Positions 4,319 through 19,122 of a stretch of DNA of 31,686 bases are shown here, piece after piece; position 1 is the stretch's first letter; every line of letters begins with the position of its first letter. The notes under the pieces are model-generated. The model worked only from the letters and a program-made list of their open reading frames with translations, was not told the DNA's origin and ran no database searches. Origin of the DNA: a virus. The stretch is from positions 1-31,686 of IMG/VR virus record IMGVR_UViG_3300020455_000061; one strand, 5' to 3'. The translations under genes were made by a program, and so were the position numbers.

Positions 4319-4798
4319 ATGACTAAAGTTACTTTTCGCAAATTCCCTGTTCCAGCCGTACTGGATAGGGATTCTTTTTTAACACCATTTGATAGAATGT
4401 TTGATGATATTGTAGGAAAACAATTTCCTGAAATCAATCAACAAGTTGGAGTCAATCCATTTCAAGGAACAGCATACCCAAAAGTAAATGTATATGAATA
4501 CGATACTAAGATTGGTGTGATTGCTGAGATACCTGGTTTGGATAAGAAGGACTTAAATGTAGAAGTTGAGGATGGTGTATTAACTGTATCTGGTGAAAAA
4601 TCACATGGATTTGATGAGGGCGAGGCTAAGGTATTGCGTCGTGAACTCAAACACTCTTCCTTTAAGAGACAATTCACTTTAGGTGAAATGTTAGATGGGG
4701 ATAATATCTCTGCCAACTTTAAGGATGGTATTCTATCTATTGAGATTCCAAAGATAGAACCGACACTCCCTAAGAAAAACATTGTCAAGATTAAGTAA
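4319..4798 (+). CDS. hsp20: Small heat-shock protein (Hsp20, alpha-crystallin domain)
   Basis: A 159-residue ATP-independent holdase of the alpha-crystallin family. The domain spans about residues 50-147: PKVNVYEYD, then IPGLDKKDLNVEVEDGVLTVSGE (the family's consensus strand pair) and FKDGILSIEIPK. The C-terminal NIVKIK supplies the I-x-I/V motif that docks oligomers. Marine T4-like phages commonly carry one; it probably protects phage proteins during assembly or under stress. Strong AGGAG precedes the ATG by seven bases. The gene is preceded by an unusual leader with two tandem hairpins, which may control its expression. Confidence 0.92.
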   Translation: MTKVTFRKFPVPAVLDRDSFLTPFDRMFDDIVGKQFPEINQQVGVNPFQGTAYPKVNVYEYDTKIGVIAEIPGLDKKDLNVEVEDGVLTVSGEKSHGFDEGEAKVLRRELKHSSFKRQFTLGEMLDGDNISANFKDGILSIEIPKIEPTLPKKNIVKIK

Positions 4799-10635: not shown

Positions 10636-11223
10636 ATGTCCGTAATTAATTGTTACAAAGAAGATAATCCATTAATCAAAAAGAAACTACGGGAGGTTAC
10701 AGTTGAAGAAGGACTGGAGATTGCAACAAAACTATTTCAGATACTTAACCAAAGAGGGGACGGTATTGGGTTGGCAGCTAATCAAGTGGGAATTGATGCA
10801 CAGGTGGCCGTTGTCAATGTTATTGAACCTCGGATACTCATCAACCCTAAGATCATATCTAAAGATAATGAGATTGATTATTACGAAGGTTGTTTAAGTT
10901 ATCCTGGTCAAGGTGTATCCACAAAAAGATATAGAGATGTAGTTATATCTACTGCTCAATCAGAAAGTAATTGGTATTTTAGTGGTGCTGAATCTTTACA
11001 AGATGTTCATGGTAGTTGGGAAGAGAAACATAAAAAAGATGAACAAGAAAAAAGAATCTTAGAATCCATTTGTGTTCAACATGAGATTGACCATTTGAAT
11101 GGTGTAACAATATTTAATCGTCAGGTAAAGAATCAACCTGTACAAAAAAAGACTATCAAAGTTGGGCGTAATGAAAAATGTCCATGTGGTAGTGGAAAGA
11201 AATTTAAGAAGTGTTGTGGATGA
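10636..11223 (+). CDS. def: Peptide deformylase with C-terminal SEC-C zinc motif
   Basis: A 195-residue peptide deformylase that removes the formyl group from nascent N-formyl-Met. All three catalytic motifs are present: GIGLAANQ (43-50), EGCLS (84-88) and QHEIDH (148-153), giving the Cys-His-His metal site and catalytic Glu. Unlike standard enzymes it has a charged insert of about 25 residues (roughly 115-140) between motifs 2 and 3. It also ends in a complete SEC-C motif, [14 protein letters not shown] (182-195), the zinc element found at the SecA C-terminus. That element could tether it to ribosomes or SecB. Deformylases are common in marine phages; this C-terminal fusion is not something I know as standard. 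AGGAA precedes the ATG. Confidence 0.92.
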
Positions 11224-17090: not shown

Positions 17091-18038
17091 ATGGAATACT
17101 ATTTACCAAGAATTTTACAAGCTGGTATAGGTCCTAATCAACCACCACATACAAAAGATATAATTGTTAATGGAATACCATTATTTGATAATATACAAAT
17201 ACAGACAATTGAGTTTTGTAATTTAAAGTGTGATTTTTGTCCTAATCATTATTTGATTTGGGATAGGTTAGATGATAAAAGAAATGGAACACCATATAAA
17301 TTGATGTCCATTGAAAATTATACTAAGTTGATTAAGAACTTATCAGACTTAAACTACTCTGGTAGAATATCACCTTATCTAATGAATGAACCATTGATGG
17401 ATAAAGATAGAATGGTAGAAATAATTGGTATTGCTAAAGAGTATTTACCAAATAGCTATTTGACAATTAATACAAATGGTACTGGATTAACAGTAGATTT
17501 GATGCAAGGTATGATTGATGCTGGTATGGATAGGATACAGATTGATGATTATTTTGATGATAAGTATGCAACCAGAATGTTAAAGATTATGGAACACTTT
17601 CAGAAAGCGAATTGTAATATAATTTTATCATCTAATTATAATGTTAAACAGGCTAGGAATAGAGAGGATAAAAATAAATTACCACATTATGGTCCTTATA
17701 CTTATTGGAATAGAGGTGGTTTGGTAAATGTAAACCCAGACATACCTGTACCACAAAAGAATTGTAAATATCCTAATAAACATGCGTTTATTAAATGGGA
17801 TGGAAGTGCATTACTATGTTGTTGTGATTGGGAATATAAAGTAGTACATGGTAATGTTTTTGAAACAAGTATAGAAGAGGTTTGGACTAATGGTTCATAC
17901 CAACACTATAGAGATACCTTAGCAAAAGGTAGAAGAGATTTATTAAAAATGTGTCGGAAATGTAATATGGGCGGAGTTGAATCAGAGGATCAACGAATGG
18001 AAGAATTTCAACGACAAGAAAAATATGGGGCTGACTAG
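17091..18038 (+). CDS. Radical SAM protein with SPASM-like C-terminus
   Basis: A 315-residue radical SAM enzyme. CNLKCDFC (Cys43, 47, 50) binds the [4Fe-4S] cluster that cleaves SAM. The TIM-barrel region follows, with INTNGTGLTVDLMQGMIDAG typical of family strand 3. A SPASM-like segment has Cys225, CCC at 243-245 (in the pattern F-I-K-W-D-G-S-A-L-L-C-C-C-D-W), GNV and CRKC at 288-291, enough for at least one auxiliary cluster. Relatives modify peptides or small molecules; marine phage homologues have no proven substrate. No precursor-peptide gene is evident next door. The final four codons and stop lie inside the 5' end of the tmRNA gene (18027-18038). Confidence 0.9.
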   Translation: MEYYLPRILQAGIGPNQPPHTKDIIVNGIPLFDNIQIQTIEFCNLKCDFCPNHYLIWDRLDDKRNGTPYKLMSIENYTKLIKNLSDLNYSGRISPYLMNEPLMDKDRMVEIIGIAKEYLPNSYLTINTNGTGLTVDLMQGMIDAGMDRIQIDDYFDDKYATRMLKIMEHFQKANCNIILSSNYNVKQARNREDKNKLPHYGPYTYWNRGGLVNVNPDIPVPQKNCKYPNKHAFIKWDGSALLCCCDWEYKVVHGNVFETSIEEVWTNGSYQHYRDTLAKGRRDLLKMCRKCNMGGVESEDQRMEEFQRQEKYGAD

Positions 18039-18459
18039 GATTCGATTATTACAATCAATTTAAAAAGTGCAGCAGAGATTAGGTCAATATCTCGTGACAA
18101 AAGACCTACTACACTCAAATGGCGATAATTCGCTTGAAGGGTTGGACATTGATTGGCATTTGGCTGAGTATGATTACTCACCAGCACCGATCGGTGATTA
18201 CCAACCATCTTACGCATACGCTGCTTAAGGTCTTGGGTTGTCTAACACCCGAGCATAAAATAAGTTAGACAAACTCACTTTAGCTAGAGGGAAGTTAGTG
18301 ATTAAAGAAACTGCCAGTTGGCAACTCTGAACAAAGTTGTTAGTGGTTTTGCAGGTAAATTAATAGGCCTCCTATGATAAGATGTGAAAACCTGACTAAG
18401 CTGTGAATGACTTAGTAAAAGGGTGTAATAAGACGGCGGTTCGATTCCGCCCAGCTCCA
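18027..18459 (+). ncRNA. ssrA: tmRNA (one-piece, extended tag)
   Basis: Transfer-messenger RNA that rescues stalled ribosomes. The 5' end GGGGCTGACTAGGATTCGAT matches bacterial ssrA. GGGGCTG (18027-18033) pairs with CAGCTCC (18452-18458), with A18459 as discriminator. CCA is not encoded (CAA follows). The T-arm is perfect: GGCGG (18435-18439), TTCGATT loop, CCGCC (18447-18451). PK1: GAGAT (18075) with ATCTC (18089), loop TAGGTC (18080) with GACCTA (18103). PK2: CTTGGGT (18232) with ACCCGAG (18247), loop TGTCTAAC (18239) with GTTAGACA (18264). Further pseudoknots are likely at 18273-18355. CTGACTAAGC before the T-arm also matches ssrA. It is longer than the usual 350-400 nt because of its 35-codon tag region. 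No promoter is seen directly upstream, so RNase P may free it from the operon mRNA. Confidence 0.95.
18121..18228 (+). other. tmRNA tag reading frame, 35 codons plus TAA
   Basis: Resume codon assigned as GGC at 18121, 12 bases after the 3' strand of PK1 (E. coli spacing is about 11). The frame runs 35 codons to TAA at 18226-18228, starting GDNSLEG and ending GDYQPSYAYAA. The end keeps the Ala-Ala of ssrA degrons but has Tyr where ALAA has Leu. Inside the frame, TGAGTA-TGAT-TACTCA (18165-18180) and CACC-GATC-GGTG (18185-18196) form hairpins enclosed by GGTTGG (18140-18145) pairing with CCAACC (18201-18206). The resume codon is inferred by position. Confidence 0.75.
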
Positions 18460-18465
18460 CAAGAT

Positions 18466-18630: not shown

Positions 18631-18805
18631 TAATGATTTAAAAGATTGGGTTTTAAATTGGGAAAGATTAAATCCTGATGTTAAAGAAACATTAGAATTA
18701 TTAAAAGAACAATATGGTTGTGAAAAGGCAGTAGAGATGTATTCAGAAATGTTGTTTATGGATTTATTAGCCAAGAAACAAAAAAGAGAAAAGGATAAAA
18801 AATGA
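18608..18805 (+). CDS. Helical hypothetical protein, 65 aa
   Basis: A 65-residue protein with GAGG ahead of an ATG that lies inside the previous gene. LNPDVKETLELLKEQYGCEK and AVEMYSEMLFMDLLAKKQK form helices; the C-terminus is basic (KKQKREKDKK). No family recognised. Ends in an ATGA overlap with the membrane protein gene. Confidence 0.5.
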   Translation: MFNEKPDSNDLKDWVLNWERLNPDVKETLELLKEQYGCEKAVEMYSEMLFMDLLAKKQKREKDKK

Positions 18806-19122
18806 TAGCAATGTATTTTGCATTAGGTGTACTAGCACCCTCAATCTTAAATCTAATACATTTAGTAATGAATGTATACATTGTAGTTGCCAGGGGTAAT
18901 TTGATGTCATTAGGATTTACTGGTATTAGTTTTTTAACAAAGACCATAGGAATGTTATTTTTAACATGGTTTGGTATAGAGATTGCTGGATTAGACTTTA
19001 GAATATATGTACCTATATTAACTTTTGTTTGGTTTATGTCTCATTTATGTGAAGCATTTATTATACAACATTATATGAAACAAAATGTTCCGAAGTGGAT
19101 AGAAAGGATGCAGTTGAAATGA
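18802..19122 (+). CDS. Three-pass membrane protein, 106 aa
   Basis: A 106-residue membrane protein with three hydrophobic segments: MYFALGVLAPSILNLIHLVMN, ISFLTKTIGMLFLTWFGIEIA and YVPILTFVWFMSHLCEAFII, and a basic C-terminus. Size and layout loosely resemble small AtpI-like proteins, but this is not a firm match. AAAGGAT precedes the ATG; ends in an ATGA overlap. Confidence 0.6.
   Translation: MIAMYFALGVLAPSILNLIHLVMNVYIVVARGNLMSLGFTGISFLTKTIGMLFLTWFGIEIAGLDFRIYVPILTFVWFMSHLCEAFIIQHYMKQNVPKWIERMQLK

Follow-up and report, generated by a model that had tools for sequence, protein, structure and literature searches.

Tag length and coding constraint at a phage tmRNA locus

The locus raises the question of whether a phage tmRNA can encode a tag of 35 residues, and whether the additional codons are kept for the peptide, for the RNA, or for both. 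The DNA analysed ("the window") comprises the 31,686 bases of an IMG/VR virus record; the phage has T4-like baseplate genes and PhoH. It carries a phage tmRNA with a 35-codon tag frame that has two conserved parts, a folded insert within the coding sequence, and a tag-PK2 cassette that is exchangeable between phages, and we consider it fairly probable that the tag acts as a two-part signal.

The earlier note had recognized a tmRNA with acceptor stem, T-arm, PK1, and PK2, and this call was corroborated. The Rfam covariance model RF00023 matches at 18027-18462 (+) with 90.1 bits (gathering score 47, E 5.6e-34) over the full model (1-374), and compensatory pairs were found in PK1 across 77 and in PK2 across 71 distinct relatives, as expected for a real tmRNA. 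The features are compiled in Table 1. With the RNAs described by RF00023 the gene shares the one-piece form, a tRNA-like domain whose third acceptor pair is a G-U wobble (G18029-U18456, the established G3-U70 alanine identity pair for AlaRS), the covarying PK1 and PK2, a resume codon after a 12-nt linker, an open tag frame, and a stop codon in an H5-like helix. In contrast to them, it has a tag of 35 codons instead of about 10, a folded coding insert, a resume codon inside a hairpin, and a low model score (90 bits). The 3′-end is CACAA (18460-18462 is CAA), i.e. CCA is not encoded, and the CCA tail must therefore come from the host.

Table 1. Features of the tmRNA gene in the window
Feature	Position	Strand	Basis
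One-piece phage tmRNA (ssrA)	18027-18462	+	Rfam RF00023 covariance model
Acceptor stem, 5′ strand GGGGCTG	18027-18033	+	Partner 18452-18458; G18029-U18456 wobble; sequence and covariance model alignment
PK1	18075-18108	+	18075-18079/18089-18093 and 18080-18085/18103-18108
Linker from PK1 to resume codon, 12 nt	18109-18120	+	GGC at the equivalent place in short-tag relatives
Resume-codon hairpin GGCGA/TCGCT	18121-18134	+	18121-18125/18130-18134
Tag reading frame, 35 codons and TAA	18121-18228	+	18121-18225 and TAA 18226-18228; GDNSLEGLDIDWHLAEYDYSPAPIGDYQPSYAYAA
Conserved peptide block SLEGLDIDWHLA, codons 4-15	18130-18165	+	dN/dS and synonymous excess at unpaired sites
Folded insert	18140-18206	+	Closing helix GGTTGG/CCAACC 18140-18145/18201-18206; MFE folds
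Inner helix and hairpin of the insert	18147-18156/18187-18196; 18165-18170/18175-18180	+	MFE folds
C-terminal tag part QPSYAYAA, degron-like end	18202-18225	+	dN/dS 0.18 over QPxYAYAA codons
H5-like helix, TAA stop in 3′ strand	18207-18231	+	18207-18212/18226-18231
PK2	18232-18269	+	18232-18237/18248-18253 and 18241-18246/18264-18269
T-arm GGCGG-TTCGATT-CCGCC	18435-18451	+	Sequence and RF00023 alignment

The upstream radical SAM/SPASM gene (17091-18038) overlaps the tmRNA gene by 12 nt (18027-18038). Its stop codon TAG (18036-18038) is thus inside the tmRNA, and 5′ maturation would make its mRNA a non-stop message. A homologue of this gene (L013) ends earlier and is found in a record without a tmRNA. 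In several relatives (L215 318-471, L124 upstream of 1078, and others) the tmRNA is immediately preceded by a small acidic ORF, at the position that the radical SAM gene has in the window. Two further genes of the window (4319-4798 and 10636-11223) code for a chaperone of the HSP20 type and a peptide deformylase that has a SEC-C motif.

Distribution of the long tag

Relatives were found by a scan for AAATGGCGATAATTCG and by a search with the tag alignment (80 of 106 relatives kept). To avoid choosing by the tag, additional scans used PK2 and PK1 patterns. More than 100 IMG/VR phage contigs have tags of 34-43 residues, including contigs from these tag-independent scans. The analysed set comprised 71 distinct long-tag contexts, in which 64 different tag DNAs encode 60 different peptides, with lengths of 34-43 aa and a mode of 36. 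The PK2 pattern led to a long tag at 61 of 65 distinct loci; three of the remaining four are cut off at a contig end, and L200, the last of them, is long according to the PK1-pattern scan. The latter scan retrieved a long tag in 19 of 22 cases, a variant long tag in two (L202, L206), and a short tag in one (L215).

A tblastn search of the isolate phages in INPHARED with the tag found none. DNA searches with the window tmRNA gave no match, and with the tmRNA of a relative the matches listed covered 8-9% of the query, around the T-arm. The bacterial genome contigs searched for the tag contained a single hit (L124, contig NHIV01000037.1), a phage-like contig with a long-tag tmRNA and three tRNAs that is binned into the MAG bacterium TMED198. 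A further 198 genomes of the same phylum are devoid of the tag, and a host origin was rejected on these grounds. The long-tag carriers are a group of uncultivated T4-like phages. The binning of L124 is a weak hint at the host; the MAG's own tmRNA tag is ADYGYAAAA.

Longer-than-usual frames were also seen in other phage tmRNAs, i.e. GKNIPVNLLAQGQVGHSNFAYAG with 23 aa (L002 8616-9020), DNTTVVFHPALVAALSKRTAA with 21 aa (L008 4240-4692), and a frame that ends with AGIQAFA (L010 1419-1651).

Selection on the tag peptide and on its RNA

The tag consensus among the long-tag relatives is G[DE]xSLxGLx[IV]DWHLA...QP[ST]YAYAA, and the C-termini are mostly YAYAA or YAYA, with some YAFA. The mean dN/dS values (Nei-Gojobori) are 0.14 for SLxGLxIDWHLA, 0.09 for GLxIDWHLA, and 0.18 for QPxYAYAA, in contrast to 0.76 for the middle of the tag. 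At nucleotides of the conserved block that are predicted to be unpaired, 73 synonymous and 14 non-synonymous changes were counted, while about 80% non-synonymous changes would be expected by chance; the changes are not independent and the folds are predicted, so that the effect size matters more than a p-value. The conserved block is under purifying selection at the peptide level. RNA pairing also fixes the codons GGG, TTG, and TCG, and this RNA constraint could account for part of the conservation seen in the peptide.

A Pfam search with the tag found no domain match, i.e. the conserved block has no match to a known family. AlphaFold2 (AF2) predicts a disordered peptide without secondary structure (pLDDT 65), as expected for a linear signal, and a folded mini-domain was therefore rejected. 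In the PDB, GH18 chitinases matched weakly (E 0.09); the match consists of the motif GLDIDW and was taken as chance. The tag begins with GDN and its last 11 residues begin with GDY, which could be read as a duplication; this echo is not conserved, because other relatives have NDQ, DSQ, or DVQ, and the idea was dropped.

The tag-coding nucleotides are also under selection at the RNA level. The MFE of the tag is below that of synonymous-codon shuffles (mean z -2.86, p<0.05 in 91%). Three elements recur, i.e. the resume-codon hairpin, the domain closed by GGTTGG/CCAACC, and the H5-like helix that holds the stop codon; the first and the third had been absent from the earlier list of hairpins. The resume codon is paired in the local folds of 85 of 87 relatives, and its stem is kept by the variants GACGAA..TTCGTT and GAGG..CCTC. 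Whole-alignment RNAalifold missed most helices because of the gappy middle, and pairs were counted on codon-anchored columns instead (codon numbers are alignment columns). In the insert helix, the third position of codon 11 and the first position of codon 38 are paired in 81 of 92 sequences, with a shuffle maximum of 59; the pairs include A-T (43), C-G (25), G-T (8), and T-G (3). In the H5-like helix, the first position of codon 41 pairs with stop+2 in 87 of 92 sequences (shuffle maximum 66), and the third position of codon 40 pairs with stop+3 in all 92. The shuffle values overstate the significance, since the relatives are not independent. Both of these helices show compensatory changes. The outer GGTTGG/CCAACC pairs hardly vary and carry little information by themselves, but the inner extension of the helix covaries.

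The folded insert proposed from the sequence is supported, except for one of its two inner hairpins. The GGTTGG/CCAACC helix is present and lies within the tag frame: in the covariance model alignment the insert is an unaligned stretch from PK1 to PK2, yet it is inside the reading frame. Two alternative inner folds occur, with EYDYS-like middles (type I) and NSEMGF-like middles (type II), and the hairpin at 18165-18180 is conserved as the inner hairpin of one of them. The second proposed hairpin (18185-18196) is not the best fold, because 18187-18196 pairs better with 18147-18156.

These results bear on the possibility that the insert matters mainly as RNA, e.g. by masking of the resume codon, resistance to host nucleases, or protein binding, and that the long peptide is a tolerated by-product. 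The strong fold in comparison with synonymous shuffles, the compensatory changes, the fixed GGG and TCG codons, and the hairpin over the resume codon are all compatible with this explanation. However, the same SLxGLxIDWHLA peptide is found under two different inner folds. Among the 24 type II sequences, most changes in the loop codons for H and L are synonymous, the exceptions being four sequences with Q-F, and the middle of the tag, which is structured too, is free to drift at the peptide level (dN/dS 0.76). We therefore regard a role mainly as RNA as unlikely, and favour selection on both the peptide and the RNA.

Short-tag relatives and exchange of the tag-PK2 segment

Four relatives (L215; L287, on the same contig as L292; L293; and L295) have the 9-residue tag GNTANFAYA. 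It starts at the same GGC, after the same kind of PK1 linker as the long tags. The gene downstream of the L215 tmRNA is 57% identical to window ORF 18802-19122, indicating that the locus is syntenic. The short-tag L287 and the long-tag L023 share 90% identity across 88 nt on the 5′ side of the tag and 96% across 178 nt on the 3′ side of PK2, whereas tag and PK2 are entirely different. The tag-PK2 segment is thus exchanged as a unit, as a recombining cassette.

In a backbone tree, L287 and L215 were found in separate places among the long-tag rows. The support is weak and recombination occurs, so that the tree does not order the long and short states. The suggestion that a short tag had been expanded by insertion is plausible, as short-tag relatives exist.

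Possible function of the added peptide

Host SmpB, alanyl-tRNA synthetase, and EF-Tu are the expected partners of the tmRNA, which would load on stalled ribosomes and add an alanine and the 35-residue peptide encoded from GGC 18121. QP[ST]YAYAA would most likely provide the ordinary C-terminal degron, recognized by a host AAA+ protease, and the added SLxGLxIDWHLA most likely a second recognition element for a protease or an adaptor, with a variable spacer between the two conserved parts, similar to the extended Mycoplasma tags, which are contacted at several points by Lon. The insert folds probably accommodate the long ORF in the space from PK1 to PK2 and leave the remainder of the RNA undisturbed. 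Translation, tagging, and a binding partner of the added peptide are steps that we infer. By analogy to its nearest parallel, the extended Mollicute tag read by Lon, the added peptide may belong to a two-part degron or offer a protease or adaptor a second site to bind.

More specifically, proteins from stalled ribosomes might receive a two-part address from the exchangeable cassette during infection, which would send them to a particular adaptor, protease, or phage factor; the same nucleotides would encode this address and its folded RNA carrier. This proposal is tentative, and we regard it as possible rather than probable. Searches for a phage-encoded partner gave no common gene for SmpB, ClpP, or Lon, and this candidate was rejected: SmpB was found in 0 of 14 large records and a ClpP-like protease in two of the 14 (L224 and L225, the records of L072 and L194), many of these records being fragments. 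Lon_C was found in 0 of 12 phage records, many of them likewise fragments, and is also absent from MAG TMED198, for which completeness is not given.

Alternatively, the added peptide could give tagged proteins a fate other than degradation, such as protection or jamming of a host protease, or could act as a free phage peptide. The peptide-level conservation of a block without a known family match would fit such a fate, as would tag ends of AYAA, AYA, or AFA instead of ALAA. Nevertheless, the C-terminal residues remain small and hydrophobic, as in known degrons, and we consider this explanation improbable compared with a two-part degradation signal.

Start of the tag and its annotation

The least likely alternative is that the real tag is short and starts downstream, e.g. 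as GDYQPSYAYAA at GGT 18193, and that the upstream part is a structured RNA insert only. An 11-aa tag would be ordinary, given that the most frequent length is 10 aa (PMC11915505), and ARAGORN predicts shorter tags for six long-tag relatives (L023, L024, L124, L001, L060, and L087). However, these starts are inside the long tag, on unrelated and non-homologous codons (GNDQ, GDYQ, EYDYS, AEKS, VNDE). ARAGORN called GNTANFAYA in L287 correctly, and found no tmRNA in L038, L104, L190, the window, or the short-tag L215. The short-tag relatives resume at the GGC just past the same kind of PK1 linker, and no homologue has its resume codon downstream. The strongest constraint on the tag lies in codons that precede GDYQPSYAYAA (dN/dS 0.09-0.14, with the synonymous excess at unpaired sites). 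Stop codons occur in 0 of 64 tag frames in contrast to 62-64 in the other two frames, the former count being partly a result of the search rule. A start at 18193 was thus rejected on the basis of the short-tag relatives and codon-level selection, and we hold a downstream start to be very improbable. Comparison places the first tag codon at GGC 18121, and the 35-codon frame read from there in the earlier note is borne out by its recurrence, with 34-43 codons, in the long-tag contigs.

Comparison with known tags

According to the 2025 tmRNA database paper, tags are most often 10 aa long and a tag of 2 aa is an extreme at the short end; its passages on tag length mention no long tags, although its supplements may list such tags (PMC11915505). 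Phage tmRNAs are known from the mycobacteriophage Bxz1 group, Bacillus phage G, and, in two-piece form, Melnitz (PMC4131195, PMC9004378). They have in common with the present gene that the tmRNA is phage-encoded and presumably relies on host SmpB, but the passages of these sources that describe them report no extended conserved tag.

The extended ssrA tags of Mycoplasma and Mesoplasma, which are read by Lon, end with NYAFA/AFA (Gur & Sauer 2008; Ge & Karzai 2009, via PMC9382460, PMC3985003). The phage tags resemble them in being much longer than 10-15 aa and in the C-terminal Y-A-aromatic-A end (NYAFA there; TYAYAA and TYAFA here). They differ in being phage-borne and longer (34-43 aa), and no similarity was seen beyond the end in a comparison by description. 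The phage long tag is nearest in kind to these Lon-directed tags; it was not classified with them because it has its own structured insert and short-tag relatives.

Implications

With 34-43 residues, the phage tags exceed both the usual 10 residues and the roughly 27 residues of the extended Mycoplasma tags. ARAGORN misses or truncates them, and long tags would therefore be overlooked or recorded as ordinary short tags. Conservation acts on the peptide and on the RNA of the tag simultaneously, and phages exchange the tag along with PK2. As almost identical molecules with a long and with a short tag exist naturally, the function of the extended tag is testable. The selection on both the tag peptide and the RNA fold suggests that, in these phages, stalled proteins receive a second signal in addition to the usual one for degradation.
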